Shown: positions 7,605 to 61,704 of the stretch, one piece after another
Numbering within the stretch: position 1 is the stretch's first letter
Layout of the letters: every line of letters starts with the position of its first letter
IMG/VR virus record: IMGVR_UViG_3300025276_000029
Coordinates: 1-64,000 of that record
Strand: one strand, 5' to 3'
DNA length: 64,000 nt
DNA from: a virus
The notes under the pieces: model-generated
Database searches by the model: none
The model's input: the letters and a program-made list of their open reading frames with translations, nothing else
Told to the model about the DNA's origin: nothing
Program-made: the position numbers and the translations under genes

Positions 7605-7648
7605 AATTTGTTTTTGATGTTTTTTGTTAGTACAAAAAACGTCTTACG

Positions 7649-14706: not shown

Positions 14707-14707
14707 A

Positions 14708-15004: not shown

Positions 15005-15108
15005 TATTACTAATTTAGGTAAAATACACCTATTTGTAAACACTATTCCTTTAATAAATATTTACATACTGATATATATTCACTATATTTAAATAAATTA
15101 TATATATT

Positions 15109-15562: not shown

Positions 15563-15596
15563 CTAAGGTAATAAAAAATAACCAGTAAAACAAAAA

Positions 15597-15616
15597 AAAC
15601 TTCAATTAAGAAGTTT
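15597..15616 (-). terminator. Rho-independent terminator
   Basis: AAACTTCTTAATTGAAGTTT with eight or more U following on the minus strand. It ends the 15651-16271 gene. Confidence 0.75.
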
Positions 15617-15650
15617 TAGTGGTGTAGATATTATATGTTTGGTGATTAAA

Positions 15651-42157: not shown

Positions 42158-45100
42158 TTAACTTGGTATTATTGTACCGTTAATATCAATTGTTGTAACT
42201 TCACCTAAGAAGTCACTTTCACAACCAGTATCCTTTATCCAAACCCCATTACATTTAGTTATTGATGGTTGTAGTGTAATTAACCCACCTGTAGTCCCAG
42301 TTGTAGGTATAGAACTCGGTAACACTTGACTGATTACACTAACCGTAGAGTTACTTGCTAAGGGTAATATTGTAGGTGGAGGTGTTACAACTGTTGGTGT
42401 TGACGTTGTTGTTATTAATGATACCGTATTGATAGGTTTCCATATTAGTGGTGTTACTCCGTCAAGTTCTGTACGTGAATTTGTCCCGTTATCAAAATCA
42501 AAACTAACTGGACCTTGGTACGATGACGTAGTGTTTAGGGTTATTGTATCTATTTGATTTACTTTAGTAATATCTTTTACTATAGTTTCATAAGCTAAAT
42601 ACTCTATATCAAAATATATTTCTAAATGTACATTTCCAGAAATCCCTTGCCTACCAATAACTAAAGGATTAACAATTAATTTTACTCCATTCCTACTGAA
42701 GAAATCATTTTCAATGTCTGTTGCAAAATTAGATAGACTATAAGTTGTTGAGTCTGATTGACCCATAGTTACGGTAGTTCCGTCGTAATACTTTAACTCT
42801 CTCTTTCCTCCCTTAATAGTTGTAGTTGCGTCCCCTAAATATATATTATCATTATCGATAACTACGTTAACCTTAGAGGGGTCCGAAGCATAGGGTCCAG
42901 AGTTGACTAATTCAGTATTATCACCACGAAACATAAAAAGATAATAACCAGTATCTGACGGATTAGAGTTAGTACCATTTGCAGACCATAAATCTACGTA
43001 TATACCGTCGGGTATGTTTTGAAGCACACTTCTAGCCTTTACTATACCTGTTGTCACTGTTGATGTTATTGTTGTTGGTAATGATGTTGTTCCGCTAGTT
43101 GGTATATTACATAGGTATAAATTACCACGTTTATAATTAAATTTCTGTTGGTCAAATACTGTATTTTTGTAAGCGTATGTTGAACCCCATATTGTCGTAG
43201 CTGGTACAACTTGTTCTATTAAGTCAATCCAATAATTACCAACGGTCTTTCCGAAGGTGTCCATGTCGGAATAATCATACTTAGAACTATTAATTCCACA
43301 AAATTCTAATGAACGAGTGTTATATCTGTCGTAAAGCATTCTTAATGTTGCATAGCTACTAATTGTTTGTCTGTTTTTAACATCAATTAATTCACTACTT
43401 AATGTACTGGCAAATTCATTAACTGTATCTATTTGACTAAGTTCAGTTGTTAGTACGTCGTCTAGGTCAATACAGCCATTATCACCACATTTACTATAAA
43501 CACACTTGCTAGTGTTTTTATCCCAAGTCGCATTTGGATATGCGTTAATACCCTGGTTAAACATATCAGCGTATATTTCAAATGCATCATCAATTACCTT
43601 ACAACATGTCTCATTTACTTGACTTGACACATTTTCTTGTGTGTTTGTTGTTCCACTAATCCATTTTGATACATAAACCCCGATAGTTCCATTGTTTTCT
43701 TCTGTAATCCAAAACCCATCAAACGATGTTGTTGTACCTGAACCTATAGCGTAGGCTGTTCCACCGTTTGCCACATTAATAGGTTTTAATGTTGTAGTAG
43801 TTCCGTAATTATTTACTAGTGTGGTTATATCATTACATACAAAATTTGTTGTAGTTGTAGTCGTTGTAGCACTTGTTGCGCAACCTGATGCAGGAGTCAC
43901 GGTTGATATCGAAGGTGATAGAGGTAGTTCAATTGTCTTATTTTCGTAACCTTTAACAATTAACGGAAATCCGTCACAAGGACAGTATTCGTCTGATTGT
44001 TCATCTTCTCTTGTGATTCTATCAATCTTAGTACATACTGTAGAGCCTGATACACAGGTATCTAATGAATAACCTACTGGACATGAATAAGCGCTAAATT
44101 CACCTAAATCAAAAGTAGTACCTATTCTATCAATAGTACTAAATATCCTAACTGAATTAAGTTCACTTTCAAATCTAATATTTTTTAGTTGTGCTTCACT
44201 AGCGTCATATATTTCACAAACAAATCCAGCAATACCACTAGTATTGTTGTAACCTTCTATTTCTATAATGTTTTTACCAGCAGATAACTTAATACCCATG
44301 ACCACGTAACTTTGAATACTTCTTGAGTAAGAAATACTAAAGTTATTATGTATTCCAGCGTAATGTGATGGCGCTGTAACTGGGTTTATTAAGTACTCAC
44401 CGTTTATTTTTATTTTTGTTTCGTCATCAGCAGCAAACCCTAACCTATATGTCTTTGTTTCTGTTAGTTCAAGACAGTATGATAAACCAATCCATTCTTG
44501 AACTGGAAGTGTTCCTGGATTAGACCAAACTGATGCGTTTAGTAATCTACCAGCATTGTTAGTACTTGTTAAGTTGTTATACGTTGAGGCTGATACTGAA
44601 CCGTTTGTACCACCCCAAAGTATATTGGGGTTAAACATACTAGAGATTACGTCTGAATTATTTTTACCAAATTTACTTTTAATACCACTAAAGGCGTCTG
44701 GTGAAGAATATTGTAATGTTCCATCTGAAAACTTATTAATTCCGAAACCACTATGTGTTAAATAATTTCCAGAAGAATCTATTAAATAATCTACGTTGTA
44801 GTAAGGTCCAACCCAGCTATCTTTAGTTGTCCCTGTCCAGTATATCGGCCATTGGTTGTCTGTTACGTCTTCAACGAAGATAGTACCTCTAGATAAATAA
44901 TGTACTGAGTTAGTTAAACCTACACCAGGACCTACTGTATAGGTTGTAGCACTGCTTGTGGTTGCCGTTACCGTTAGTTCTGTACAACTGTCTCCATCAA
45001 CATCTAATGTATATCCAGAAGGGCAGCTAAATGAGTTGTATGTTTCTCCGCTAGAAATGCAACCTTCAAGGATGCAGTTGTTATCAGATACGTAGCACCA

Positions 45101-46819
45101 AACATCTTGTTCAACTGCTCTAGAAGGACTTAAATTTAAATCTACTTCCTTAGTGTTAACTACGAGTTTGTGATGATTAGTGTTGTATTCTGTACCTCTA
45201 TATTTTAAATCAAAGAATCTTTTGTCTTTTATTTCGTTAGATACCCATGATTTTTTATTATCAGGAACTTTGACTAATTCAAATTTTGGTGGTTCCGATA
45301 TGAATTTTTTTATATTATCAACTTTGGTACACACTTTATTCATCTTAATCCTATCTAATAAGATTGTGAAATCTACACAACTATTCTTTATTGATATCGT
45401 GATGTTAATTTTTCTATTTTCTATTGCATCTAAAACTAGTTTATCAGTAATAGTGGTTTCATAATTTAACCAACATGATTGATACCATCCAGTTAATCCG
45501 CTGAATATCTCTAACTGCTCTTGTTGAGTAGATGGTAGTGTATTTGTTTCTAAATATTGATTAAATAAATCCGTAACTAAGTTATCTCTAATTTGAGTAC
45601 ATAAATCAGCATTACTACTTAATAACTGACTTTGTGCGAGTGTTGGCATAAATCCTGTATCACCAGTAATTATTATACCTGTCTTGCCAGATGTGGAGTC
45701 AATATAATTATATAGGTTATCAGTCCCAATATTCATTAGCGTTTCTTCATAAACACTTGTTAGTATTTTTGTCGTACCTGTACTTTCTACTTCAAGTGTA
45801 AATGCAGTTTCGAATTGCTCAAACATATCAATATATGTAGTACATACACCTGGAATTGGGGCTGTGTAGGGTGTAGTTATGATGTTTCCTGTTATACCAG
45901 TAATAGAATTTGTTAAAGTTTGTAATTCAGCCTTACAGTTATTTAGTATGGGTGTATATTTGGTTATAGTGTCTTCCGCTCTTTCTCTATCATATATAGA
46001 GTAATTACACACACTTGTGTGATAGTCCCCTGGACTTGGTTCACTATCAATAAATGACTTGACTTGTGCGTTAGTGTAGGTTGTTGTGTCGGTACCGTAA
46101 CTAGCTGACCATGTGCCACCTGTCACTACGTTAGTTTCCCATTCCTGTTTCCCAAGGTCTGTTAAACAATAACTTACCACGTTAGGGTCGAAAATACCAT
46201 AAGCTAATGGAGGTAGATTGCCTCCATAGTATAACGATGGGTTGGTTGGAATGGTTATACCATTTGGACCTATTACTCCTGGAGCTAAATATTGGATAAC
46301 ATAAGGTACTGAATCTGCGTTATCTATAATATCTTGGTAAAAGTCACACTCTGTACTTACTGTGTTTGCGGACGATTCTAGTTCGTCTAAAGTCGTTAAT
46401 GTGGTAGAGTTGGCGCCGACAATCCCTAGAGCATTAGCTTTGGCTTTACGCAGTTTATCACATTCAAACATGTATAAATAATCAAAAGATATTTTTAGTT
46501 CGCAGGTTTCATTAGGTTCAACATTAAATAGTGTGCTTGAGTTTCCTTCTGGATTCAATATAACCTTAAATAATTCGGAATTATCTAATGCCCACATACA
46601 TTTTTGTGTTGTAACATCAAAAGTATAACCTAGTAATTCACAACATGGTTTTGTTTGGTGACTAGTTATAGGATTTTGAACTACAGCACCACTAGGTAGT
46701 GTTGTTGGTGGTTCGTATAGTCCAACTGTACCGCCAGATAGTTCAATTATTGTGTATCCGTCGGCTTCGTAAGAATCTTTAGTTCTACAATTTTTACTAT
46801 ATAAGGTTATTGCTGGCAT
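42158..46819 (-). CDS. Giant Cys-rich PA14-domain tail protein, 1553 residues
   Basis: The N-terminus has a Cys-bearing unit (TKPCCELLGYTFDVTTQKCM) that recurs near 1130 as VNETCCKVIDDAF ... ATWDKNTSKCVYSKC, an internal duplication. The middle carries SFSCPSGYTLDVDGDSCTEL, a PA14/GLEYA-like beta domain (YRLGFAADDETKIKINGEYL, IKLSAGKNIIEIEGYNN; about 790-880) and YSCPVGYSLDTCVSGSTVCT. Later come a Thr-homopolymer linker near 1010 and several Cys pairs. The C-terminus has Thr/Pro-rich linkers and a last Cys. It is an exposed, disulfide-rich adhesin-like tail component, probably long-fibre or receptor-binding. No enzyme motif is seen. Confidence 0.75.
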   Translation of the reverse strand: MPAITLYSKNCRTKDSYEADGYTIIELSGGTVGLYEPPTTLPSGAVVQNPITSHQTKPCCELLGYTFDVTTQKCMWALDNSELFKVILNPEGNSSTLFNVEPNETCELKISFDYLYMFECDKLRKAKANALGIVGANSTTLTTLDELESSANTVSTECDFYQDIIDNADSVPYVIQYLAPGVIGPNGITIPTNPSLYYGGNLPPLAYGIFDPNVVSYCLTDLGKQEWETNVVTGGTWSASYGTDTTTYTNAQVKSFIDSEPSPGDYHTSVCNYSIYDRERAEDTITKYTPILNNCKAELQTLTNSITGITGNIITTPYTAPIPGVCTTYIDMFEQFETAFTLEVESTGTTKILTSVYEETLMNIGTDNLYNYIDSTSGKTGIIITGDTGFMPTLAQSQLLSSNADLCTQIRDNLVTDLFNQYLETNTLPSTQQEQLEIFSGLTGWYQSCWLNYETTITDKLVLDAIENRKINITISIKNSCVDFTILLDRIKMNKVCTKVDNIKKFISEPPKFELVKVPDNKKSWVSNEIKDKRFFDLKYRGTEYNTNHHKLVVNTKEVDLNLSPSRAVEQDVWCYVSDNNCILEGCISSGETYNSFSCPSGYTLDVDGDSCTELTVTATTSSATTYTVGPGVGLTNSVHYLSRGTIFVEDVTDNQWPIYWTGTTKDSWVGPYYNVDYLIDSSGNYLTHSGFGINKFSDGTLQYSSPDAFSGIKSKFGKNNSDVISSMFNPNILWGGTNGSVSASTYNNLTSTNNAGRLLNASVWSNPGTLPVQEWIGLSYCLELTETKTYRLGFAADDETKIKINGEYLINPVTAPSHYAGIHNNFSISYSRSIQSYVVMGIKLSAGKNIIEIEGYNNTSGIAGFVCEIYDASEAQLKNIRFESELNSVRIFSTIDRIGTTFDLGEFSAYSCPVGYSLDTCVSGSTVCTKIDRITREDEQSDEYCPCDGFPLIVKGYENKTIELPLSPSISTVTPASGCATSATTTTTTTNFVCNDITTLVNNYGTTTTLKPINVANGGTAYAIGSGTTTSFDGFWITEENNGTIGVYVSKWISGTTNTQENVSSQVNETCCKVIDDAFEIYADMFNQGINAYPNATWDKNTSKCVYSKCGDNGCIDLDDVLTTELSQIDTVNEFASTLSSELIDVKNRQTISSYATLRMLYDRYNTRSLEFCGINSSKYDYSDMDTFGKTVGNYWIDLIEQVVPATTIWGSTYAYKNTVFDQQKFNYKRGNLYLCNIPTSGTTSLPTTITSTVTTGIVKARSVLQNIPDGIYVDLWSANGTNSNPSDTGYYLFMFRGDNTELVNSGPYASDPSKVNVVIDNDNIYLGDATTTIKGGKRELKYYDGTTVTMGQSDSTTYSLSNFATDIENDFFSRNGVKLIVNPLVIGRQGISGNVHLEIYFDIEYLAYETIVKDITKVNQIDTITLNTTSSYQGPVSFDFDNGTNSRTELDGVTPLIWKPINTVSLITTTSTPTVVTPPPTILPLASNSTVSVISQVLPSSIPTTGTTGGLITLQPSITKCNGVWIKDTGCESDFLGEVTTIDINGTIIPS

Positions 46820-46900: not shown

Positions 46901-49669
46901 TTACACTATATCTTTATAGCATCCGATTATATTTCTAGCTCTTTGTTCGTATAACTGATATATAATATTTGTTTTAGTTGGGTTATCGGTAAATTCCTTA
47001 ACACCTTTAGTGTTTAGTTTACATCCGTAACCTTTTTCACCTGTATATGGGTCTGTAATTAATTGATAATTAATATCGTAAAGGCCTCCTGGGCAAAAAC
47101 CTGTATCGGTATTAACTACTCTTGAATCACCTTTAGGGTCTATAAATTTTAAATAGTAGTTAGTTCCGATTAATTCCATACTACCTAGTGTCGAGCCTGC
47201 TAATACCCACTGACACGCTAAAGTGGAACCTACCCCTCTTTTTCTTGAATCATGAAACGGAATTTGTGTACTTACTGAGCTAGTTTGGTTCGTTGGAACG
47301 CAAAGATATCCGCAGTTAACTAACTCCCATTGAAGAGTACTCCCAGTAGTACCTGTACTTGTATTTATGTATTCTTCATGATAGAACGGTTTACTACCTG
47401 GGGCTAGTGCGTTGCAGCAATTCGGGTCTAACCATTTTGTCGTATTAGTGTGCGTACTTGATACTGTACCATCAGGTTCGTATAGTTCAAACTCTACTTC
47501 AATATAATTACCATCTAAAGTGACACCTGTAGGGTTTACTATATTTTGACCTATCATACCTTCTTTACATTTCTTGTCTTTTTGTAGTTGATTTAAGTTG
47601 TTAGTGTATGGGTTATTATTAGTTACGTCAATCCTTAACGCTTCATCATCTTCAGGTATATCACATCCGCAGTCCGTTTGCTCTACTTGAGGGCACGGGT
47701 CTTTTATTATAGAACTTTCAACTTTTGAGATATTAGTTAAATCTACACCGCTATCATTCTGAAGTGTAATGTGTGTGGCACCAGTGTATTGATTAAATAA
47801 CCCAGAATTATAATTTGTAAATAACTTTGCGTCAGTTGTTGTGATAGTTGTTGACGTAAGTGTAAACGGTGTAAAGTCTGGAATTATATTTTCTAATTGA
47901 TTAATATATTCTTTTCCCCCATCATAAGGTCCTACGTGTGGGTTATTACCATTAAGTATGTATTGCGTTGCGGTTTCACCGCCAGTTTCCCTATACCATT
48001 GACCACCTTTTTGAAAGTACATATTTGGTGTGTCTCTAAAGAATTTAGGGTATCCATCATAATCTACGTTGTATAGGTCTATGTCGTCGTCTAAGCCATT
48101 AGCTTCAAGCGTGGCATAGAATAGTTTCATATCTATTGGTTCTTTGGCTACGTATACGTGTTCGTCAAACTCAATAAGACCGTCTGGAGCACCTATTAAT
48201 TTAAAGAAAAATTCAATTGTTTTTCTAGTACCTTTAGATTTCCAAATCCAAGATGAATTAAGTATTAGCCTTCTCCATAATTCAGTCTCAGCTTCAGCTG
48301 GTGTTAGCCCTCTACTTTGTCCAGCGTAGGTCCTAGCGCCAACGTTTAAATATGAGTTTACTAAGTCGTTCTCTACTATTGAACTTGTCAATTCCCAACC
48401 TAGTACTCTAGCTAAGTATTTAACTAATTGGTCTGGTGTGTTTTTTTTCTTATCGTATGTTACAACGTTAGCAAATGATATACCGTCAATATATTTTTTT
48501 ATCTCGTCAAATTCCCTACCGTAAATTTTTAAGGTTTTGTTCATTTTCTGACCAGCAGTTTCTTCTTCATCACCTTCACAATTTGGTATAGTGTCAAAAT
48601 CTGATATAGATTCAGCCGTTAAGAATCTAGCCATAAGGTTGGTTTCGATACCATCCTTACTATTCGCTATTTCTATCAATTCACTTACAAATCTAACATA
48701 TTCAGCAGTGTTGTAATCTATATTGTAACCATCAGTTGTTGGCCATGTTAGTGTTTTTTCAGAAATCGTAATTGTTCCATCGTCTTCATCTTTTTTGTAG
48801 TTGTATGTGGATGTGTATTTAGGTAATGTTAACCTGTTTAATAGATTATTTTCATATTGACTTATACTATTAAAAAAAGACTCTTCAATAATCTTATTTG
48901 GTTTTATATGGTATGTTGGGGTACTATCTGCTGAACCATTAAAACCAAATGGGTCACCTTCTACTTCTAGTTTGATTGTATCGTTACCAATACTTGTTGC
49001 TCCTGAAAACCCTAATACTTTATATTCGTTATCATTAATTAATATAACGTAATCAGCATAACTAACTTGTAGGTTTCTGAGTTTGTTTTTTTTATTAAAT
49101 GTATTTATTATTGTTCCGTTATTTAAAAAATTAATATCAAATTTATTATCAATGAAGTTGACATCAACATTAAATGTTGCCTTATTCAAGACTGAATTAT
49201 AATTATAGTTAGATATAGTGTCACCTACAATCGTATTTATACCATCATTTCTTAACGGTGTAACATATAGTGAGGCTGGCCAATTTGTAATTATATTTTC
49301 AAGACTAACTCTAATAAATTCCGTAGCAGAACCAAAGTATACTAAATCACATAAGTTACCATTATCTAGATTAAGGGTTACTTTAATGTTGTTATTTAGT
49401 ATTAACTTACTACCAAAACTTGTCAAGTCGTAGCTATCTAGTGAGTAGAAATTACTATATTTTTTACTTGTATATAGTCTGGTGAGTCTACCCCCGTAAT
49501 TTGTCGTAGTTACGAAATTACCGAATGTAAATACAGACGTCTCTCCGTCAGCGTTTTCAGTTTGCTGATTACCTACTAGTCCGTCACTAAAGTTTCTATA
49601 TTCGATTCCACCATTATAAAAGACTCTTTGTGCGTAACCCGCTACCTTTACTCTGTTATTTTCACCCAT
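46901..49669 (-). CDS. Large baseplate/tail protein, 922 residues
   Basis: Beta-rich N-terminal 300 residues. Then around 370-520 is a helical region with VKYLARVLGWELTSSIVEND and RRLILNSSWIWKSKGTRKTI, then EFFFKLIGAPDGLIEFDEHV, which recalls the phage tail protein I / baseplate gpI-type pattern (helical, W-K-x-[KR]-G-T). A Cys motif, CPQVEQTDCGCDIPEDDEA, lies near 655, and the C-terminus has QLYEQRARNIIGCYKDIV. I infer a baseplate component linking wedge and fibre. It overlaps nothing and follows the 303-residue gene by 4 nt. Confidence 0.65.
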   Translation of the reverse strand: MGENNRVKVAGYAQRVFYNGGIEYRNFSDGLVGNQQTENADGETSVFTFGNFVTTTNYGGRLTRLYTSKKYSNFYSLDSYDLTSFGSKLILNNNIKVTLNLDNGNLCDLVYFGSATEFIRVSLENIITNWPASLYVTPLRNDGINTIVGDTISNYNYNSVLNKATFNVDVNFIDNKFDINFLNNGTIINTFNKKNKLRNLQVSYADYVILINDNEYKVLGFSGATSIGNDTIKLEVEGDPFGFNGSADSTPTYHIKPNKIIEESFFNSISQYENNLLNRLTLPKYTSTYNYKKDEDDGTITISEKTLTWPTTDGYNIDYNTAEYVRFVSELIEIANSKDGIETNLMARFLTAESISDFDTIPNCEGDEEETAGQKMNKTLKIYGREFDEIKKYIDGISFANVVTYDKKKNTPDQLVKYLARVLGWELTSSIVENDLVNSYLNVGARTYAGQSRGLTPAEAETELWRRLILNSSWIWKSKGTRKTIEFFFKLIGAPDGLIEFDEHVYVAKEPIDMKLFYATLEANGLDDDIDLYNVDYDGYPKFFRDTPNMYFQKGGQWYRETGGETATQYILNGNNPHVGPYDGGKEYINQLENIIPDFTPFTLTSTTITTTDAKLFTNYNSGLFNQYTGATHITLQNDSGVDLTNISKVESSIIKDPCPQVEQTDCGCDIPEDDEALRIDVTNNNPYTNNLNQLQKDKKCKEGMIGQNIVNPTGVTLDGNYIEVEFELYEPDGTVSSTHTNTTKWLDPNCCNALAPGSKPFYHEEYINTSTGTTGSTLQWELVNCGYLCVPTNQTSSVSTQIPFHDSRKRGVGSTLACQWVLAGSTLGSMELIGTNYYLKFIDPKGDSRVVNTDTGFCPGGLYDINYQLITDPYTGEKGYGCKLNTKGVKEFTDNPTKTNIIYQLYEQRARNIIGCYKDIV

Positions 49670-50620: not shown

Positions 50621-51523
50621 CTATTTTTGTAAATTATAGAAACCATTTCCATAATTTATTAATTCTTCCATATTTGTTATATCACTAAGTTGCATATGAC
50701 TCTGAATAACCGTTGACCTACCTCTATCGATGAATAAATCATTAAAGACTGTAGGTGATTCAGTTATCCCAAATAAATAACCTTCTCTAGTTTCTGCGGA
50801 TAAGTGAATGTTGGTTTCGTTAAACCCTTCAGAATTGTAATTAATTTCAGTATATGGTATTTTATATTTACCAAGAACATTACTAGTTATAGTTCTGGTT
50901 TCTCCAGTTTTAGTCGTATAATAAATACCTCTTTTAGTTATTGGTAATAGCGCAAGTTCTGCTGGGTCTGTATCGCCTTCAATTAAATATGTTATCGGAT
51001 TTAGATTACTATTTGATATAACTCTTGTCCCAGAAATAAATGGTGCGTTTTGATAATCAATAGCACTAATATTTCTGGTTATATCAAAATTTGGTTTGTA
51101 CCTTAAATTAGCGTCGTATGAAACTACAGAGTCAAGTCTATTTTCTGTAAGTCCAGTAACTTGTATAGGTAGGGTAAAGTACTGATTAATGGTCTTATCT
51201 GGATATCTTGTATTAGGATAAGCTCCTGTTTGTGAGAAATTTGTTGTACCACCTGTCATAAAATTAAATTTATAACCGTTATTGTAAATTGTAGTTCCAG
51301 ATTTTATTAACCCTTGGTAGTCAACTAATAAATTTTTATTATTTGGGTCTGTAGTGTAATTCCATTTAGCTATAAACGGTAATTCGGTAGAAACGCCCAT
51401 ATCATCAGTGTCTTGTGTGAAAAATACATTAATATTAAATGTACTTGCAGTCATTTGTCCCCAATTAGATTGTTCTCTACTTGTATAATTATCTAACGCT
51501 ATTTTTCTCTTTATAACCTCCAT
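50621..51523 (-). CDS. Tail/baseplate protein, 300 residues
   Basis: MEVIKRKIALDNYTSREQSN, a beta-sheet-rich body (STFNINVFFTQDTDDMGVST and NQYFTLPIQVTGLTENRLDS), and a C-terminal region with FINERG-like loops (DLFIDRGRSTVIQSHMQLSD). The start shares one base with the stop of the 51523-52698 gene. No motif indicates enzymatic function. It is probably a structural baseplate component, inferred from position in the tail operon. Confidence 0.6.
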   Translation of the reverse strand: MEVIKRKIALDNYTSREQSNWGQMTASTFNINVFFTQDTDDMGVSTELPFIAKWNYTTDPNNKNLLVDYQGLIKSGTTIYNNGYKFNFMTGGTTNFSQTGAYPNTRYPDKTINQYFTLPIQVTGLTENRLDSVVSYDANLRYKPNFDITRNISAIDYQNAPFISGTRVISNSNLNPITYLIEGDTDPAELALLPITKRGIYYTTKTGETRTITSNVLGKYKIPYTEINYNSEGFNETNIHLSAETREGYLFGITESPTVFNDLFIDRGRSTVIQSHMQLSDITNMEELINYGNGFYNLQK

Positions 51524-52698
51524 TACATTGTACTTATTTCATACAGTTCTATATTATACTTACCAGTAGTTACATTAGATGTAGTTACATTTGATGTAGT
51601 TACATTAGATGAGTAGTTTTCATCTATCTCGTAGAAGTAACCGTCAATATCCCTTGTTAATATATATCTAGTATATAAGTTATTTTTAACACTTGTACCT
51701 GTTAAGTTCATAGTTGTCATCATTAGTTCATCAATAGGTAGGTTGGGACTATTTGAAGATATCAGACCTGTTGATATACCAGTCTTAGCGTTATTAAATT
51801 TAGCCTTCATGTAAAGGTGTTTAGGTGCATTAAGTATTTTAGGTGGTATTTCATCCTTAAAATGATATAAAGCAAATCCTTCACCATTTCCGTTTCTATC
51901 TAATAACGTGTTAGTTAATTCAAAATCCAATTGGTAAGTTGTTGGGTCTGGCACATTACCCTGCCCTGCAGCGGCAATATCTATTGAACTAAATTTAGGG
52001 TATAGTGTGATAAATGATATAAAATTTTGATTTGTAGCTATATCGCTATCGTAAAAATCAAGCCTTAAAAAACTTTTAGTAAATGATTTCTTTTTAAAAA
52101 GAAAATCGTTATAATCGAAACCTATGTCAGACCAAAAGTTTGATTTTTTTTTAATTGAACTTTTGGTGATAGTCCCGTTGATTAAAGCTAAATTTGAAGG
52201 TGTAGGGTTTATGTCAATAACAAATACTGTGGGTGAATCAAGTCTTTTTACTGTAAACTCTTTATCAAAAATATTACTTAGCGGACTTAATATTACAATT
52301 TTTTCACCTAATTTTAAATTATGTACTTTTGATGTTTCAAGAGCTAACATACTACTTGTTATTACATTCCCACTGTTTCCTACAATTGCAATGGAAGAGG
52401 AATAACTTAATATAGTTACCGAAGATGCTCCGATTAAATTATTGCTTTCTGTTTCTAGTAAATTAATATTATATGTTATATCAGTTATTGGAACAGTATC
52501 ATCTTTAGGTAGTAGTTTTACCTTTTCATAATCATATATGACGTTAACAGCCTTGTCTACTTCAGTCTCTATGAATTCACTTTCAATTGACTCTTGTTGT
52601 CCGACAAAGCCTACATTTTGACTCATAGATAAACTAATGTCGTAACCTGTGGTCCCGCTTAATTGTGAATTAACTATCGTATATTTATTAACAAACAT
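51523..52698 (-). CDS. Tail/baseplate protein with C-terminal SNVTT repeats
   Basis: 391 residues, beta-rich and Ser/Thr/Asn/Leu-rich (MFVNKYTIVNSQLSGTTGYD). It contains repeated 'S-x-V-x-I-L' strands and ends in a short array of three VTTSN units encoded by a 15-bp tandem repeat, then YNIELYEISTM. The start overlaps the preceding gene by 11 nt. It is probably a structural wedge/connector. Function is by context only. Confidence 0.6.
   Translation of the reverse strand: MFVNKYTIVNSQLSGTTGYDISLSMSQNVGFVGQQESIESEFIETEVDKAVNVIYDYEKVKLLPKDDTVPITDITYNINLLETESNNLIGASSVTILSYSSSIAIVGNSGNVITSSMLALETSKVHNLKLGEKIVILSPLSNIFDKEFTVKRLDSPTVFVIDINPTPSNLALINGTITKSSIKKKSNFWSDIGFDYNDFLFKKKSFTKSFLRLDFYDSDIATNQNFISFITLYPKFSSIDIAAAGQGNVPDPTTYQLDFELTNTLLDRNGNGEGFALYHFKDEIPPKILNAPKHLYMKAKFNNAKTGISTGLISSNSPNLPIDELMMTTMNLTGTSVKNNLYTRYILTRDIDGYFYEIDENYSSNVTTSNVTTSNVTTGKYNIELYEISTM
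51569..51613. repeat. Three 15-bp tandem units
   Basis: Units of AGTTACATTAGATGT type at 51569-51583, 51584-51598 and 51599-51613, with one or two changes each, encoding VTTSN repeats at the end of the 391-residue protein. Confidence 0.85.
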
Positions 52699-54517
52699 CT
52701 TGTCCTTTTTTTACTATAAAATTATCAGTAATAGCGTCACCTATTGGGTCTGGTGGGTCAAAAGGTCCGTTCCCAGTGATATTACCTTGGTAGTATAAAT
52801 CGTATTGACCAAATGGGTCTTGTCTTTTAGTCATGAGACATATGTTTTGGTGTATATAGTGGGCACCATTTGTAAATGGATAGTCTAGCTCTTCACCTTC
52901 CCCATCATAAACTCCAATATCTAATAAATCTCTCCATAGGTATCTCCCGTCATTAACACCTAAATATTCACGGTAATCTGGAATACCACCTGTCTTCTCA
53001 TCACCTTGTTCTATATATAGTGAGAATTCTCTAATTTTAAATAGATAATGAGGTTTATATAAATAACCTTCTCTTCTAGGACCTTTAGCGAGTCTTGATG
53101 CATTTGCATTTTCTCTATCAACGGTGTTAAACCTATGTAGTACATCTGCTAGTTTAGTTTCTCTAAGTGTAAACTTGTTGTACTCAACAACGTCACCATA
53201 AAACCAGTCTTTAGTGTTGAAAGTGCTACCGTATATATTACCTTCATTTGGTAGTGTAATGTGGCTGTCGAAGCCAGTCCAAGATGCAGGTCCGTCGTGA
53301 ATTCTCCTAACATTACTTATTTTGGTATCAGTTAGATTACCTTCTATAAATTCTAAATCCAAACCTGACTTTAACGGACCAAACATACCGTCACTATCGG
53401 TTTTTATAAAGGTAATATATAACTCACTAAGTGGTCTACCTAAATTATCACGTATTTCAACACCTGAGTCATCAATCCCTACATCTATATCTTCGTTGAT
53501 GATGAACTGGTAGTTTAAGTCATTAAATATTGTTCTACTGAAACCTAATGGATACATTTCGTAATCATCCTTTAACAGTATCTTTTTGAATTTTCTTAAA
53601 TAGTATCTTGATGGTTCACCGTTGACTAGTTTTTTCATTCTACCAGTACTGTTTATAATACCTAAAGTATTTGGTTTTACGTCTATTACGAAGTAATTAG
53701 CTAAGTAATCACCATTATTAAGACCTAGTCTTTTTACTGTATGGTCACCATTATAACTTGCAGTCATTCCAGTTAGTCTAACCCTGTCACCGTTTTCTAA
53801 CCCATGTTGTGTACTAGTACTTAAGGCTACCATTGGTATACCTCCCACTTCTACCGCTGCTGCTGAAACTATTAGTAACCCGCCATTAACAACGTGATGT
53901 GTGTCGTCACTATCGTATGGGTATGTTACTGTTAGTTGCCAATTTTTATCAATACTTGAGTTTAGGTCAAATCTATCTCTAGTTGGTTCGATATCAATGA
54001 AGTTACAAAAACCTGATTTACTAATGTCTGGGTTAGTAAATCCAAACCAACCTTGATTCTCTTGTAAGTAAGTGTTAAGTGAGTCTTTATATGTTAAATC
54101 TAATTTACCTATTGAATTCTGGAATATAGAGGGTGATGCGTCAGAACTAGTTTGGTCCTTTACAAAGTACTTTGCAAAGAACACGTCTAAACCATTACCT
54201 GTTTCGGGAGGAGTAAAGTTACTAACGCTACCATAAGTAAAGTTTGCAGTCACATTATTAAGTGAATAAAAGGATGGTTTTGTAGTCACGTTCATTAGTG
54301 GATTACTAAATAAAGGTTGAACTGTACCTTGTAATCTGTATATTTTTGACTTATTTCGCTCTTTAGCAAACTCAGCACCAACATCAACCACATGATTTAT
54401 TTCACCAACGGGTAATACTTTTCTTTCACCACCGAACCCTACTTTTATAAATGTATCCTGGTTCACGTCGTTTTTAGAACTACTCTCTCTTAATTTATAT
54501 TTTAATCTATTTCTCAT
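52688..54517 (-). CDS. Tail/baseplate protein, 609 residues
   Basis: MRNRLKYKLRESSSKNDVNQ is a basic start; the body is beta-rich with VLPVGEINHVVDVGAEFAKE, IYRLQGTVQPLFSNPLMNVT and AAAVEVGGIPMVALSTSTQHG. Near 490 is GYLYKPHYLFKIREFSLYIE, and near the C-terminus DPFGQYDLYYQGNITGNGPF. The regular mix of long beta stretches and conserved-looking aromatic positions fits a baseplate structural protein; none of the T4 names can be given with confidence. It overlaps the next gene's start. Confidence 0.62.
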   Translation of the reverse strand: MRNRLKYKLRESSSKNDVNQDTFIKVGFGGERKVLPVGEINHVVDVGAEFAKERNKSKIYRLQGTVQPLFSNPLMNVTTKPSFYSLNNVTANFTYGSVSNFTPPETGNGLDVFFAKYFVKDQTSSDASPSIFQNSIGKLDLTYKDSLNTYLQENQGWFGFTNPDISKSGFCNFIDIEPTRDRFDLNSSIDKNWQLTVTYPYDSDDTHHVVNGGLLIVSAAAVEVGGIPMVALSTSTQHGLENGDRVRLTGMTASYNGDHTVKRLGLNNGDYLANYFVIDVKPNTLGIINSTGRMKKLVNGEPSRYYLRKFKKILLKDDYEMYPLGFSRTIFNDLNYQFIINEDIDVGIDDSGVEIRDNLGRPLSELYITFIKTDSDGMFGPLKSGLDLEFIEGNLTDTKISNVRRIHDGPASWTGFDSHITLPNEGNIYGSTFNTKDWFYGDVVEYNKFTLRETKLADVLHRFNTVDRENANASRLAKGPRREGYLYKPHYLFKIREFSLYIEQGDEKTGGIPDYREYLGVNDGRYLWRDLLDIGVYDGEGEELDYPFTNGAHYIHQNICLMTKRQDPFGQYDLYYQGNITGNGPFDPPDPIGDAITDNFIVKKGQDVC

Positions 54518-54541: not shown

Positions 54542-57500
54542 TTAAATACTAACACCACCATAATTTTGTAGGACTACTACGAAATCACTAGTAAGACAAC
54601 CCTTACCGTTTCTGTCCCTAACTTTAATAGTATATTTAACAGGTGGGGCGAGTTGAGGTATGCCATTAACATCTATTATTACAGGATTAGCTGGTGGAAG
54701 GTTGTATACATCGTTTGAACCAGAAAGTTGTTTAACGACGTCTGGTGTTGTGCTTGACCCTTTATACCATTCTATCACGTATTTATAAATATCAATCCCG
54801 CTTGTAACATTAAGGTTAAATACACCGCCGTCAATAGTAGCTGTAATTGTACCTAAAGTTGTATCGCTTTTTAGTACTGCGGTAAGAGGTATGTCTGGTG
54901 AAAATACATCAACAAATTCGCTTTTGGTGCATCCACTTACGTCTGTAACTGTAACCTCATATGCGTTAACACCATTCCCTTCATCTAGCCCAAGTCCTGA
55001 ATTATCGAATGTTACATCGGTACCAGTTTTTGATTCTGTAGAAATAGTTGTTATGTATGGTCCTCCTGACCCACCTACAATATTATTAACTGATATAGAA
55101 GCTATTGAACCGTTGCAGTTACCATCCACAATAGTTATAGGGTCGTAAGTTATTGGTTGTGGTTCGTTTACGGCAACACTAAAATTTGTTGTCGTATTAG
55201 CTCCGTCATCTGTAACATCAACAGAATACGTTCCAGCATATAGGTCATCTATTAGACTTGTTGTTTTCCCATTACTCCATAAAAATGAATACGGACCTAC
55301 ACCTCCACTAACGTAACTTATAATACTTCCACTTTTTTCACCGTTACAGGCTACGTCCTCAGGAGTTAATACTACGTTTAATGCCTGAGGTTCAATTATT
55401 TCTATTAATTCGTCACAGCTAGTCTGAGGTGTGCTAGAGTCGGTTACAATTACTTTGTAATATCCTTTACCTAGATTAGATATAAGTCTACTTGTGGAGT
55501 TACCAGTGGTTGGTGGCCCTACAGGGGATAATAAAGTACCTGGTGGTGATGGGTCGTATTCATATGTTGTGACAGTGTATGGTGGTGTTCCGTTACTTAT
55601 GTCGATTGTTATTTTACCGTCAGTATAACCGTTAGCGGTTATATCAGTTTTTTGTGTGTTACAGTAAGTTGATGGTGCACCTGGAACTATAAATGTGCTG
55701 TCGGTTACATTTCCTGCTGAATCGGTAACTGTAACGGTGTATGTTCCAGCATATAATCCAGTTATTGAGTTTGTATTACCACTTTGTGGTGTGTAGTTGG
55801 GAGTTAATGGGTAACTTAAACCATTTATGGTTGGCCCATTCCACGAAAATGTGTATGGTCCGACACCCCCAGATACTTGTATCGTTATCTCACCTGAGCC
55901 ATTACTTAGTGAGTCACTTGTGATATCAGTTGCGATAACGAAAAAATCTATACCTGGTTCTGGTGTACATTTTGCAAAATATTTACTTTTCATTTTACTT
56001 AGTGCGGTTTTACCTTTATTTAAGCCAAAGTAGAAATAGTATGAACTTTCATAAAACCATATTTGACCATCAGTCTTTTGAATTGAACCAATACCAATTA
56101 ATAGAGGGTTAGGTTGAAAAAAAACTTGACTACCTACTGAGTAGCGTTTATTTACATTTCTAAATTCTTTGTAGTGTACATCCTCGTAATCATAGTAATC
56201 TTTTTCATCAATTCTAACTGATGGTATTTCTGTTAAGTTTGGTGAATTTAAATACGTAAACATACCTCTTACAAAATCTGATTCAACATCCTCGTTACCA
56301 ATACGATTATTAGGTACACTGCCAGTGTCATCTCTTCTTTCGTCTAAGCCCATACCTAATTCACTTAACCTTTTTATGTTGTTACAATTTTTACTGTTGG
56401 TTTGAAGACCTCCACAGGTTATGTTTCCGATTAACCCTGATTTAAGTATTCCGAACGTTCCGATAGGGATTATCACTACATTAGGAGTTGCTGGGTTTAC
56501 ACCAACGTTATATATTCCATTGTTAATCTGTGGGATAGGAATATAAGAGTAGTAGGTTGAGAGTGGTGTGTCAAACCCTGTTATTTGTATAGGTCCGTTA
56601 CCCCCAGAAGCTGTAGGTTCGTATTGAGCTACAAGTGGTGGAATATTAAAGGTTGTGTCTGTTAAATATTTATAAAAAACTGGTTCACCTTCCCAGTCAC
56701 AATCGAATACTGAACCTAGGTTAACGATATCGGTGGCATATAACTTAATGTCACCGTCTCTTGTTATCGGTGAATAGTATAATTCACCATCATTTTTCTT
56801 AATGTATCCACTTCTTATTTTTATAGCATCGTAAGCATTAACACCGCCATTAGGGTTTCCATTAGCGTCTGCAGCCGTAAAAGAAGTGCTAAATTGAGGT
56901 TGTGAACCTGTACATACGTCAATTATATAGTTACGTTGACATCTATTATCAGGTTTTCCGTTATCATTATTATCTACACCTGTGTTGGCAATCTGTCTAC
57001 AATCTACCTCGCAAAATCTTTCCCTACCAGCTCCATTCCTTCTGATTTTATATTTTAATAAAAAACTATATAGTGAACCATTAATCCAATCATTATAAAA
57101 ATCGAATTTAAAGATATCGAAAGCGTCTGCTAATGCTAGTGTTTGACAGTGTGACCATCCAGCGTCACAGCCTTCTATTGATAGAAGTTTTAAAGCTGTA
57201 CATTCATGTTCATCCGCTCCGTCGTTAACATAGTGGAAATCTTCTTTAGTTTCTAGTTCAGTTTCTGGGTCTACACTTGCGTAAGTTGCATCCCATGCCT
57301 TACGAAACACACTTGATTTCGTTTTACCACGCCTACCACCTGGAGCGTATTTTTTTCCACTATCATCGGCACTACAACCTAAGGTTATGTATGGTACGTA
57401 TGGAATAATATCTTTACAATCACAGCTGTTGTCGCTAGCCTTAAAGGTACCTATACATCCTCCTGACCTACAGGACGACTTATAATAAGCTAATTTAATC

Positions 57501-59083
57501 CCACATACAAGCGAACCTATTTGGTATAGTGCAATACATATACCTCTCATTATGAGGTTAAGTAGCATCATAATAAGGTTAATTATCGCAATAATGATAA
57601 AATTTATTACACCAACTATTCTTGCTATAATCCTAATTATTATACAAATTATTGTAAAAAGTGGGTTAATTTTGTTGTCCAATTTATTAAATGGAAATGG
57701 GTTTCTATTCTTAGAATCATCAACATTTTTAAGCCCTATGAAGTTTCTGACTTCATCATTAAGTGTAGGTTGTGCTCTAGTTATGTGATTTTTAACTGTA
57801 TATATTTTGTTCCATGATAATTCGGTAAAATGTTCATCCTTTGTTGTACTGTCAAAACTAAAATCAACACCCTTTAAAAATGGACTATAACTAGTGGTGC
57901 CAGGAGTACCTATTTCTTTAGCGCCCTTCCATGTATCTGGATTGTGTGGTACCAGAAATTTAGCTCTTGTTCTGTTTCTCCCTTCATCACCCTCTATATT
58001 CATTCCGATTCTAAATCTTACTTTAGCTTTTGTTGGGATACCTTTTGATGAATCTTCTGATGGGATAAAATTTCCATATTCATCAGTTATCATGTAGTTT
58101 CTATTCATGGGTATTTGATACGCCCACGCACCATCTTCATCAATTAATTCACCACCCTCAACATCATACCTTTCGGTTTTATCGTCGTTAGTTTTTCTTA
58201 TCATTTCGATTCTACCTTCACCAGTTACAAGTTCGTCCATTTTACCTAAATTTTTTCTAGGTGCACATGATTTGCTGACCGCATGTTTATCGTTATCGCT
58301 GATGATTGAACCCATGAATATAGCCTGAGGTACTATATTTGTAGCTAAATTAATGTCACTTCTAGCTATACCGATTCTACATTCTTCGGTGTCTCCCCAG
58401 AATGGTGGTACTGTAACACTTGTTGGTGAGGTTGTTTTTAATTGAGTAAGCGTTAAAGTTTCACTTATACCTTTAAATTTTGTTGTTGAGGTAAATTTAC
58501 CAATAGGGTTACCTTCTCGGATTGAATCGTATGGTCTCTGAGAAAGTACGCCTATATCTGAAATGTCAGCGTCTACATGCATAAAGTGTGTACCTACTGG
58601 GACTCCGAAAATCATAAAATCACCAGATTCGTTAGTTGTAACGGTGAATTTATAGTAATCACAATATATATCACCCATTTCTGGATTGTCTTGTATTTCC
58701 CTTTTACTTGGAAATGTGCCTATTGGTGAGAAACATTCATCTTTTCCCCTGTTGTTTCTAGGTAGGAGGTTGTATGGGATTCCTTTATCATTAGTATCAG
58801 TTATTCTTTCGTACGGATATAGTCCAAAGATTTCTGAATCTTCTGCATCTACTTCATCAATTGGTATAAAAATTGACACTTTTGCATTAGGAACACCTAC
58901 TCCGTTATTAACTATAACTCTTCCGACGACTACACCGTAGTCAGAGCAGAATCGTCTGTACGCTTCAGCTTGTGAAATTTTAAGTGAAAGAATTTCTATA
59001 AAATCAAATTTTTGATTTATTTTTAAATTTATATTCTTACTCCTTGAGCCTGGTGTTGTTTTTATCCTGATATTATCTGACAT
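54542..59083 (-). CDS. Giant tail protein with carboxypeptidase-regulatory-like, membrane-like and SprB-repeat regions
   Basis: 1513 residues. The N-terminus has a carboxypeptidase-regulatory-like fold (VVVGRVIVNNGVGVPNAKVS, 50-75). Residues about 470-530 are a highly hydrophobic block (FTIICIIIRIIARIVGVIN, FIIIAIINLIMMLLNLIM) followed by a Cys-rich segment (SSCRSGGCIGTFK ... CDCKD). The C-terminal 400 residues hold at least four SprB-type repeats (SGGVGPYTFSWNG, LYAGTYTVTVTDSAGN; SGGVGPYSFLWSNGKTT, LYAGTYSVDVTDDGAN), as found in flavobacterial gliding adhesin SprB. It lies between gp6-like and baseplate-like genes, so it is a tail or baseplate part with adhesin-like ends. Confidence 0.8.
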   Translation of the reverse strand: MSDNIRIKTTPGSRSKNINLKINQKFDFIEILSLKISQAEAYRRFCSDYGVVVGRVIVNNGVGVPNAKVSIFIPIDEVDAEDSEIFGLYPYERITDTNDKGIPYNLLPRNNRGKDECFSPIGTFPSKREIQDNPEMGDIYCDYYKFTVTTNESGDFMIFGVPVGTHFMHVDADISDIGVLSQRPYDSIREGNPIGKFTSTTKFKGISETLTLTQLKTTSPTSVTVPPFWGDTEECRIGIARSDINLATNIVPQAIFMGSIISDNDKHAVSKSCAPRKNLGKMDELVTGEGRIEMIRKTNDDKTERYDVEGGELIDEDGAWAYQIPMNRNYMITDEYGNFIPSEDSSKGIPTKAKVRFRIGMNIEGDEGRNRTRAKFLVPHNPDTWKGAKEIGTPGTTSYSPFLKGVDFSFDSTTKDEHFTELSWNKIYTVKNHITRAQPTLNDEVRNFIGLKNVDDSKNRNPFPFNKLDNKINPLFTIICIIIRIIARIVGVINFIIIAIINLIMMLLNLIMRGICIALYQIGSLVCGIKLAYYKSSCRSGGCIGTFKASDNSCDCKDIIPYVPYITLGCSADDSGKKYAPGGRRGKTKSSVFRKAWDATYASVDPETELETKEDFHYVNDGADEHECTALKLLSIEGCDAGWSHCQTLALADAFDIFKFDFYNDWINGSLYSFLLKYKIRRNGAGRERFCEVDCRQIANTGVDNNDNGKPDNRCQRNYIIDVCTGSQPQFSTSFTAADANGNPNGGVNAYDAIKIRSGYIKKNDGELYYSPITRDGDIKLYATDIVNLGSVFDCDWEGEPVFYKYLTDTTFNIPPLVAQYEPTASGGNGPIQITGFDTPLSTYYSYIPIPQINNGIYNVGVNPATPNVVIIPIGTFGILKSGLIGNITCGGLQTNSKNCNNIKRLSELGMGLDERRDDTGSVPNNRIGNEDVESDFVRGMFTYLNSPNLTEIPSVRIDEKDYYDYEDVHYKEFRNVNKRYSVGSQVFFQPNPLLIGIGSIQKTDGQIWFYESSYYFYFGLNKGKTALSKMKSKYFAKCTPEPGIDFFVIATDITSDSLSNGSGEITIQVSGGVGPYTFSWNGPTINGLSYPLTPNYTPQSGNTNSITGLYAGTYTVTVTDSAGNVTDSTFIVPGAPSTYCNTQKTDITANGYTDGKITIDISNGTPPYTVTTYEYDPSPPGTLLSPVGPPTTGNSTSRLISNLGKGYYKVIVTDSSTPQTSCDELIEIIEPQALNVVLTPEDVACNGEKSGSIISYVSGGVGPYSFLWSNGKTTSLIDDLYAGTYSVDVTDDGANTTTNFSVAVNEPQPITYDPITIVDGNCNGSIASISVNNIVGGSGGPYITTISTESKTGTDVTFDNSGLGLDEGNGVNAYEVTVTDVSGCTKSEFVDVFSPDIPLTAVLKSDTTLGTITATIDGGVFNLNVTSGIDIYKYVIEWYKGSSTTPDVVKQLSGSNDVYNLPPANPVIIDVNGIPQLAPPVKYTIKVRDRNGKGCLTSDFVVVLQNYGGVSI

Positions 59084-59101: not shown

Positions 59102-59425
59102 TTATTCCGAATCTAATAATTCAAATTCATCCTCATCATCAAAATCATACTCATCATCATCATTATTTTTATTTTTCTTAAATATAACATTACCGATAGA
59201 TTTTAAATTATCAGTAACATCCACACCTTTGTTGAAAAAGATAACTTTAAAAAGCATATAAATAGAAAACGGTATAACGATTATAGCTGTTAATAACGAA
59301 GCGAGTATAAATAAAAAACTCTTAGTTATTAATATAATACCTTTAATAACTATTGGGTCTTTTTTTCCACTTGGTGTTTGCTTAGTATCAACACTATTAT
59401 TGTCTTTTTTACAATTACATCCCAT
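59102..59425 (-). CDS. Membrane protein with MGCNCKK start
   Basis: 107 residues: MGCNCKKDNNSVDTKQTPSG, then two close membrane segments in IVIKGIILITKSFLFILASL and LTAIIVIPFSIYMLFKVIFF, and an acidic C-terminal tail (DDDEYDFDDEDEFELLDSE). Two Cys after Met-Gly give a metal- or lipid-modification-like end. The short plus-strand frame at 5779-5877 starts the same way. It lies inside the tail operon, which is odd for a membrane protein; it could serve tail-tip function or lysis. The function is unknown. Confidence 0.65.
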   Translation of the reverse strand: MGCNCKKDNNSVDTKQTPSGKKDPIVIKGIILITKSFLFILASLLTAIIVIPFSIYMLFKVIFFNKGVDVTDNLKSIGNVIFKKNKNNDDDEYDFDDEDEFELLDSE

Positions 59426-59485: not shown

Positions 59486-61303
59486 TTATTTTACCCTTAC
59501 TTTTATATCGCTGGTGGGGTGTTTAACTTCAAACATACCAGTAGGGTCACCAAAAAGAGTGTATTCTCCAAGTAGGTCAATCTGTCTAGTTTCGTCGCTG
59601 ACGTATGGTTGAGATACTTCGTTTGAAGAGTATTTACCACCACCTACTTTATTATAAACCCTTAAGTCAACAACATTTAGTACTCCTGCAACGTTGTTTA
59701 TTTGTTCAATAAGTTGTGCTATATATATGTTGTCACCCATGCCCCATTTATTAATATCAAAATAATCTGTAATATTATTAATAGTTTCGGTAATTACTTC
59801 AGATTGTGAAAATTGTTTATCAACAAATAAATCAACTTCAAAACCTAAGTTAAATACTTTACCGTTAGATACTTCAACGTAGTCATTAAGCATTCTGTAA
59901 TTTGATAAATAAGTCCCTATGTTTTCTCTTAGTGTGGATGTTAAATTTGTACTTAATTTACTATTTTCATCAAGAGTTAGTGTATATATTCTTATTTTAT
60001 TTTGAATTTCGATTACGTTATTTCTAAACGGTACACCAAATTCACCTGGAATAAGAGCGATTCTAACTTTATAATCTTCAATAGTAACACATCTTTCTTG
60101 TGACGCAAAATTATATCTAACAAGGTTTCTTAATTCTTCAATTGAAGGTTCGTCTTTACCACCAAGCGCTGGTAGGGGATTGCTAACTTTTAGTGAATTA
60201 CGAACGTTTTGATTAATTGTAGAGTCCGCTCCATTAACGAATTGCTCAACACTATTAATATTTATTAACGTATTAGGTCCAATGTTGGTACTTGAACCAC
60301 CACCTACCCTGTAGGATATAAACATTGTCTTATTAGCTGTTAAGGTTAGCCCTAACGATAGATTATTGATAAAGTCACCAATCCTACCAACAAGTGATTT
60401 ATCTACGTCAAAATCACACAATGAGCTTATGTCTTGGGTACCGCCACCAAATATTATCTTGGTAAATCCGTTATCGGTAAATTCTTTTATGAACCTTTGG
60501 TCAACTCTTTTAAATTTACCAGGTTTGACTGTTGAGTTATCACTGAGTCTTGTATTGTCTGGTATAAATACCACATCATCAGCAAGTGCACTTACTTCGT
60601 ACCATCTAATATCTTCATCGTAAAATTGAGAACTAGATGGTGTTTTTGTTAAGTTTGTACCTTCAAGAGTTATAATAGAATTTATTGATAATATGTCATC
60701 ATCTGGAAGTACTACTTCTAAGAATGGTTTTACGTCTGAGCTAGTTATTACTCTTTTAAATATTTTTGTAACACCATTTATTACCATTTCTCTTTTTGTT
60801 AACGTATAGTTAATAATATTTCCGTTACTATCTAAGTTAGGTAATACGAGTCTGTTTGGTATTCCACCTGTTGTAAACGGTGAGGAAAAATCAATTTCAT
60901 CTGATGTTTCGAAAACTTTACCTGAGCCACTGATTTGCGCACCCCTTTTAATTATTGGGGCGTAAGACACATCAAAAGTATCACCTATAACTGGTATTGT
61001 TACTGAAAAATCAGCAATACTTACTGAGGGTCTTTTTCCTGGAATCTTAAGTCCAAATGTTCTTGCCATTGATAGTATTGAACTTCTTTCCTGTGCAAAG
61101 TCTATTTGTGTTTCTTGAAACATTCTATCAGTTTGGAATGATAACATATCACCTACCGCAGCGTTTAGTTCTAAAAGCATCATACCTACTGACGCATCGT
61201 TAAAGTCGTTAAGTGTGTCTGGGTAGTATTGTTTAACGTACCCTATCAGTTCTTGTCTGACGTCAGCAAAGTTACGACTATAATAATTTATTTTTTTTGA
61301 CAT
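59486..61303 (-). CDS. Baseplate wedge protein gp6/J-like
   Basis: 605 residues. The start, NYYSRNFADVRQELIGYVKQ with DTLNDFNDASVGMMLLELNA and AVGDMLSFQTDRMFQETQID, is the typical N-terminal helix pattern of the Baseplate_J/gp6 family. The C-terminal half has IEELRNLVRYNFASQERCVT and IEDYKVRIALIPGEFGVPFR, the 'TxxDY' region of J proteins. It forms the wedge together with gp25 and gp53. It overlaps no gene but follows gp25 by 11 nt. It is confidently structural. Confidence 0.9.
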   Translation of the reverse strand: MSKKINYYSRNFADVRQELIGYVKQYYPDTLNDFNDASVGMMLLELNAAVGDMLSFQTDRMFQETQIDFAQERSSILSMARTFGLKIPGKRPSVSIADFSVTIPVIGDTFDVSYAPIIKRGAQISGSGKVFETSDEIDFSSPFTTGGIPNRLVLPNLDSNGNIINYTLTKREMVINGVTKIFKRVITSSDVKPFLEVVLPDDDILSINSIITLEGTNLTKTPSSSQFYDEDIRWYEVSALADDVVFIPDNTRLSDNSTVKPGKFKRVDQRFIKEFTDNGFTKIIFGGGTQDISSLCDFDVDKSLVGRIGDFINNLSLGLTLTANKTMFISYRVGGGSSTNIGPNTLININSVEQFVNGADSTINQNVRNSLKVSNPLPALGGKDEPSIEELRNLVRYNFASQERCVTIEDYKVRIALIPGEFGVPFRNNVIEIQNKIRIYTLTLDENSKLSTNLTSTLRENIGTYLSNYRMLNDYVEVSNGKVFNLGFEVDLFVDKQFSQSEVITETINNITDYFDINKWGMGDNIYIAQLIEQINNVAGVLNVVDLRVYNKVGGGKYSSNEVSQPYVSDETRQIDLLGEYTLFGDPTGMFEVKHPTSDIKVRVK

Positions 61304-61314
61304 ATTTTTTATTT

Positions 61315-61704
61315 TTAAATTTGGATTAATATAAAATCTGTTTCAACAAATGTATCCTCTGTAACTGTGTAATCTATTCTTAGTATTGATACGTGTTCAT
61401 TTCGGTCACTGGTTGTGACTGATACGTCATTTATTGAAAGGTTTGGTAAGTATTTTTTAACTGTTTCGTTAATATCATCTTTTATATTTCCTTTGGTTGC
61501 ATCATCGTTTAAATCAAACATATACTTAAGAAGGTCTGTACCAAAATCTGGCATGTAAAGTCTCTCACCTTTCCTTGTTAATATTAAGTGCATTAAATCA
61601 GACTTGATAGCAGAAGCGTCTTCATTATTTAACATTATATAATGACCTAAGTTACTGTCTTTAAACGGAAACTGTATATTTATAAACTTACCATTACCAG
61701 CCAT
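61315..61704 (-). CDS. Baseplate wedge protein gp25-like (GPW_gp25 family)
   Basis: 129 residues. FPFKDSNLGHYIMLNNEDAS, then LMHLILTRKGERLYMPDFGT, with DLLKYMFDLNDDATKGNIKD and the last strands VSILRIDYTV and VETDFILIQI. The L-x-T-x-x-G-[ER]-[RL]-x-x-x-x-[DE]-[FY]-G-[TS] pattern is the gp25/W family signature. gp25 seeds the sheath in contractile tails, so the phage is a myovirus. It leads the tail operon, with a TATTTATA box 16 nt before the ATG. Confidence 0.93.
   Translation of the reverse strand: MAGNGKFINIQFPFKDSNLGHYIMLNNEDASAIKSDLMHLILTRKGERLYMPDFGTDLLKYMFDLNDDATKGNIKDDINETVKKYLPNLSINDVSVTTSDRNEHVSILRIDYTVTEDTFVETDFILIQI

Follow-up and report, generated by a model that had tools for sequence, protein, structure and literature searches.

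An SprB-type repeat arm on a conserved baseplate-region protein of uncultured phages with a likely Bacteroidota host

SprB and the SprB-like adhesins, which are type B C-terminal domain (CTD) proteins of the type IX secretion system (T9SS) and combine the families PF13573 and PF13585, are tandem arrays of immunoglobulin (Ig)-like repeats. An adhesin gene with a PorP/SprF gene downstream is the arrangement of sprB-sprF and of other type-B adhesins. Here we analyze a phage protein of 1513 amino acids which carries repeats of the same family. It is encoded by an open reading frame (ORF) on the minus strand of the window, i.e., the 64,000-nucleotide stretch covering positions 1 to 64,000 of the IMG/VR virus record IMGVR_UViG_3300025276_000029; the coordinates of the ORF, 54542-59083, were confirmed exactly, and its product is labelled P0001. 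Unlike the cellular adhesins the phage protein has an arm of about three to five domains, is without signal peptide and CHU_C signal, and has its arm fused to a core of a baseplate-region family.

Other described proteins are similar in part. GhpA of Aureispira is likewise a tandem Ig-like Bacteroidota surface protein, and among solved structures it was the best match to the arm, but it is a giant cell-surface protein with about 13% identity, and the similarity of the fold is no proof of function. T5 pb4 and similar tail proteins have distal-tail Ig/FN3-type domains projecting towards the host; pb4, however, is the central fibre protein of a siphovirus and belongs to a different sequence family. 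The classic case of Ig-like adherence is T4 Hoc. Like Hoc, the BACON and PKD adhesins of Bacteroidota gut phages (PMC13370021) are phage Ig-like arrays for sticking to surfaces, but these are other Ig families, they serve as head decoration or sit on other proteins, and they are not known in combination with the phage core described below.

The repeat arm and its distribution

The sequence-only reading of the window had proposed that this ORF encodes a phage tail protein with at least four SprB-type repeats. The repeats themselves were confirmed, as the protein matches PF13573, the SprB repeat of Pfam, with 58.6 bits (E 4.7e-16; curated cut-off 28 bits) in three stretches located at 55262-55366 (E 7.3e-12), 55832-55900 (1.3e-9), and 55574-55657 (5e-6). 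Since no PKD family of Pfam is matched at E values up to 1, the affinity is to SprB and not merely to generic PKD domains; the next Pfam match is CarboxypepD_reg in the core, which with 21.8 bits is below the cut-off. With regard to the number of repeats, the proposed four or more are a reasonable count when the sequence is read by eye, but the profile finds three and the near-exact motif SGGVGPYxFxW...LYAGTYxVxVTD is present in two domains, D1 and D3 (Table 1). D2 gives the third, weaker match to the profile; of the motif D4 has retained no more than GG.GGPY...YEVTVTD, and D5 shares just the general fold. The consensus of the arm ends with TD..GC as SprB-type repeats do.

Residues 1-1040 of the protein make up the conserved core and residues 1041-1513 the repeat arm. 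In the AlphaFold2 model (50 related arms) the arm is a row of four to five Ig-like sandwiches with a mean predicted local distance difference test (pLDDT) value of 83, the last 90 residues being poorly modelled. A Foldseek search with the arm returned as best solved relatives the grappling-hook fragments of GhpA (E 9.5e-11), and T5 pb4 scored lower. The VIA comparison with GhpA gave a Z score of 11.6 (root mean square deviation 8.3, 305 residues aligned), to be read against scores of 9-10 for unrelated Ig/FN3 chains. The PHROG matches obtained are named 'Hoc-like'.

In line with a phage tail protein the gene is encoded among baseplate genes of the gp25 and gp6 types, and across the related loci the order gp25, gp6, a small MGCNCK protein, the core-arm protein, and then five further genes is conserved. 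The gene for the 1513-residue protein lies within a conserved block of baseplate genes.

When IMG/VR was scanned with the full-length protein, 227 related places were found, and with an alignment of the core at least 592. INPHARED (50,697 phage records) gave no core homologue by tblastn with three different queries. SprB arrays in INPHARED came mainly from LR756502, with LR745206 as a second, weak match (E 7e-4). LR756502 was rejected as a phage SprB array, as its ORF carries CHU_C and adjoins genes for SpoVR and glutamate synthase and thus looks cellular. This record (LR756502.1, our L118) is a 642 kb 'uncultured phage' in which the SprB/CHU_C gene also lies beside a topoisomerase IV gene, and this part of the record looks bacterial. 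A search of bacterial genomes for prophages returned seven matches, nearly all on contigs titled as metagenome-assembled genomes (MAGs), and none in any named isolate.

In a survey with the core only we obtained 58 complete homologues, of which 50 carry SprB-type domains (49 with the window-type domain and L133 by Pfam), three have other long tails, and five (L132, L134, L181, L182, and L197) end at or shortly past the core. L063, which came from the first scan, likewise consists of the core alone, with the usual next gene directly behind it. The arm is therefore a module, since versions without an arm and versions with other tails exist beside the SprB-bearing ones. PF13573 was matched by 47 of 50 related arms at E<=0.01, and 127 of the 132 window-type domains in these loci reside on the core-arm ORF. 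We also observed that in four lineages (L042, L056, L068, and L079; ORFs near 14600-16000) an SprB-like domain is located on a neighbour related to window positions 50621-51523, and that in these lineages two ORFs related to 50621-51523 lie side by side. Apparently the SprB-like module moves among the tail genes. No pair of close relatives was found to combine a near-identical core with an unrelated arm.

Cellular relatives and evolution of the arm

We searched 198 genomes sampled from the phylum to which a Bacteroidota MAG belongs. Matches to the arm at E<=1e-6 were present in 36 of them, the best with 7.4e-22. SprB repeats and the type IX signal CHU_C occur together in all five cellular relatives which were scanned. 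A PorP/SprF gene lies directly downstream in four of the five cellular loci checked. As judged from sequence, the best cellular relatives found are SprB-like T9SS adhesins, and to this extent the earlier link to SprB stands. The family name, however, does not indicate the gliding adhesin SprB itself, since with 145 matches in one MAG alone PF13573 is a general and very common Bacteroidota surface domain. On the phage side the type IX C-terminal signals CHU_C and Por_Secre_tail have no match in the window protein. CHU_C was found in none of 50 phage arms; Por_Secre_tail matched weakly in 4 of 50, a profile which also cross-matches inside host SprB arrays.

We then built a tree of 151 domains, which has low resolution with 82 columns only and many weak forks. 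The labels host and phage require 5 changes in this tree versus 44.8 in shuffles, and the phage D1 and the phage D3 domains cluster according to where they lie in the phage protein and are set apart from the host domains. A recent capture from a host is not supported by these data. Because the phage domains group by position, the acquisition is probably ancient and would have happened once or a few times. The copies within the arm are likewise old, because at the DNA level the best repeat shared by D1 and D3 reaches only 72% identity over 46 nt. Hundreds of related uncultured phages have the same core, and most of those examined carry such an arm. This suggests a module of old age, conserved and used for adhesion or receptor contact, and not a recent theft from the host. 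The idea that this phage copies host domains is not supported in that form, as the array is old and fixed in a wide phage family.

Seven close pairs were compared, and in every one of them dN/dS increases from the N-terminus (0.02-0.11) through D1-D3 (0.14-0.53) to the distal part (0.15-0.61). The complete order is N-terminus, mid part, D1-D3, distal arm, and the identity drops in the same order. The arm is thus faster evolving than the core, and more so distally. Such a gradient would fit a host-facing end, or relaxed constraint.

Core, gene neighbourhood, and host

The core did not match any PHROG or NCBIfam family. It has weak transthyretin-like beta-sandwich regions; the best VIA hit, with a Z score of 4.5 to transthyretin, was too weak for naming the fold, and no fold of the PDB was matched at E<=0.001 (best Foldseek E 0.6). 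We also looked for a relation to T4 gp7 and found neither a PDB sequence match nor a confident fold match, although absence from those lists does not exclude gp7. The sole library match, in BFVD, is to the predicted structure of protein A0A8S5LA66 of Myoviridae sp. ctPuP5 (E 4e-69, 29% identity), which is unannotated and therefore gives no function.

At the N-terminus, MSDNIRIKTTPGSR..., there is no Sec signal peptide, and no hydrophobic segment occurs before residue 472. The hydrophobic helix which follows within the core is a separate stretch and is likewise fast-changing. Some of its positions are conserved, namely Asn494 in 78 of 78 rows, Asn502 in 76 of 77, and Cys480 in 76 of 78; with the frequent Asn509 the asparagines are spaced by 8 and 7 residues. 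The helix may form a coiled coil within the tail, or it may insert into a membrane. In all 78 loci the equivalents of the small partner protein have 87-156 residues, a Cys-rich start M(G/S)C.CK or a near variant of it, and a hydrophobic segment.

Table 1. Features of the core-arm gene and its neighbours (positions in the window)
Feature	Position	Strand	Evidence
gp25-type baseplate wedge subunit	61315..61704	-	phrog_261, E 1.7e-24
gp6-type baseplate wedge subunit	59486..61303	-	phrog_6, E 2e-18; 29% identity to baseplate wedge protein of Flavobacterium phage immuto
Partner protein, 107 aa, MGCNCKK..., hydrophobic membrane-type segment, acidic C-terminus	59102..59425	-	equivalent ORF directly upstream in 78/78 loci
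Conserved core, residues 1-1040, baseplate-region family	55964..59083	-	43-62% identity to 51 homologues; model pLDDT 79.5
Continuous strongly hydrophobic 56-residue helix in core, residues 474-529	57497..57664	-	hydrophobic in all members scanned; helix in model
D1, Ig-like, SprB-type, residues 1041-1136	55676..55963	-	PF13573 at 55832-55900; domain profile 54 bits; pLDDT mostly 75-97
D2, Ig-like, diverged SprB-type, residues 1137-1232	55388..55675	-	PF13573 at 55574-55657, E 5e-6; domain profile 42 bits
D3, Ig-like, most typical SprB repeat, residues 1233-1308	55160..55387	-	PF13573 at 55262-55366, E 7e-12; domain profile 63 bits
D4, Ig-like, degenerate repeat, about residues 1309-1418	54830..55159	-	modelled sandwich beta-strands, partly lower confidence; motif GGSGGPY...YEVTVTD
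D5, distal, most variable, about residues 1419-1513	54542..54829	-	low pLDDT; lowest segment identity; dN/dS above D1-D3 in 7/7 pairs
Conserved neighbour, 609 aa	52688..54517	-	after core gene in conserved order, armless loci included

Among the neighbours covered (52688-54517, 51523-52698, 59486-61303, and 46901-49669) none had a PorP/SprF match in Pfam. Two large proteins encoded at a similar place in other phages were considered as homologues and rejected: the 1265-residue protein of Flavobacterium phage immuto shows no homology, nor does the 1336-residue protein of Microcystis phage Mel-JY01, which matches the 922-residue neighbour in the window instead. Further downstream in the tail region a minus-strand ORF of 1553 residues (42158-46819) matches cEGF weakly (E 0.0018), is only patchily similar from one relative to the next, and is a candidate for a further fibre. 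Elsewhere in the window Rfam detects a transfer-messenger RNA on the minus strand at 7646-8011 (RF00023, 55 bits, cut-off 47), which was not reported by ARAGORN and has no similar DNA in phage records.

Seven members of the family are found in genome bins, four of which are named Bacteroidota, Bacteroidales, or Paludibacteraceae and one each Clostridiales, Mycoplasmatota, and Wolfebacteria. Bacteroidota are described as being without Shine-Dalgarno sites (PMC6847099). In agreement with the description of this phylum, a Shine-Dalgarno-like tetramer precedes only 4 of the 48 genes in the window, and the upstream regions are A-rich at -10 to -14, a result which comes without a control phage. A host within the Bacteroidota is likely; evidence specific to flavobacteria, to which the repeats had been ascribed, was not found.

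Possible functions of the arm

We consider it probable that the protein is part of the virion and contacts the host with its arm. The approximately 1040 N-terminal residues would fix the protein into the distal tail beside gp6 and gp25, and the approximately 470 C-terminal residues would form a flexible SprB-type Ig-like arm extending outward from the tail. The source of this arm would have been a T9SS type-B adhesin of some Bacteroidota cell, from which it was acquired in the distant past, the secretion signals would have been lost thereafter, and export would now be achieved by being part of the virion. Most likely the arm would make weak multivalent contacts with the host surface or with surrounding polysaccharide, and the variable distal end would tune the specificity.

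Several observations speak against a host-contacting virion arm. A role in the membrane would also suit the long hydrophobic helix and the partner gene of membrane type, the dN/dS values are below 1 throughout so that plain relaxed constraint fits the gradient as well, and the existence of armless phages means that the arm is not needed for every host. The lack of a control for the initiation sites also has to be counted here.

The main rival is that the Ig-like domains are a mere spacer, i.e., a stiff stalk by which a receptor-binding distal tip, or another fibre, is kept at a distance from the baseplate, without any binding of its own. The fold, which is like that of spacer domains such as those of T5 pb4, the variable number of domains, and the high variability of the distal part would all suit a stalk. 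However, Pfam recognizes no receptor-binding domain at the arm ends, and a spacer leaves unexplained why the consensus still has its TD..GC end and why D3 keeps the full SprB signature. We regard a pure spacer as rather unlikely, and it should be kept in mind that this judgement partly overlaps with the others, as a spacer and a weakly adhesive arm are not exclusive.

We know of no ligand for PF13573. Possibly the arm attaches the phage to polysaccharide of the environment (exopolysaccharide, algal or mucus-like glycans) and not to a receptor on the cell, to which we give slightly less credence than to the spacer. Bacteroidota gut phages adhere to the epithelium via Ig-like BACON and PKD domains (PMC13370021), and the 'Hoc-like' PHROG matches point in the same direction; the BACON and PKD proteins, however, have other domain types, and the location of the gene in a baseplate cluster suits contact with a cell.

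It is very improbable that the protein is absent from the virion and is instead displayed by the infected cell, e.g., for superinfection exclusion, with the helix and the MGCNCK partner as membrane anchor. The conserved helix of 56 hydrophobic residues and the invariant partner gene would be accounted for, but no signal peptide is present to carry the large N-terminal part across the membrane, the gene sits in the middle of the conserved baseplate block, and an asparagine every 7-8 residues is also compatible with an oligomeric coiled coil within the tail.

Least of all do we expect the arm to engage the gliding or T9SS surface machinery of the host, such as SprF-like anchors or moving adhesin tracks: the closest cellular relatives are type-B CTD adhesins, four of five beside a PorP/SprF gene, and some Bacteroidota phages require gliding genes for adsorption (PMC13288928), but such repeats are common to many different surface proteins, and the anchorage through association with PorP-like proteins (PMC9143113) concerns type B CTD proteins, whose CHU_C signal is not present in the phage protein. 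Just as doubtful is a wider scheme for a large tail protein family of Bacteroidota phages which combines the helix, as a membrane-active segment or coiled coil, the obligate small membrane-type partner, and the SprB arm, and in which the arm would take advantage of a gliding host's moving adhesins, or of their anchors in the outer membrane, for adsorption.

Adhesive Ig-like domains are already known from phages, but an SprB-type array on a conserved baseplate-region core was found here in no phage record of INPHARED, despite the at least 592 places of the family in IMG/VR. With the host-contacting arm as the preferred explanation, a likely host-contact protein can be named for a large group of uncultured phages, and the natural armless versions provide controls. 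The adsorption of these phages may thereby be tied, in a testable form, to an adhesin family of gliding Bacteroidota.

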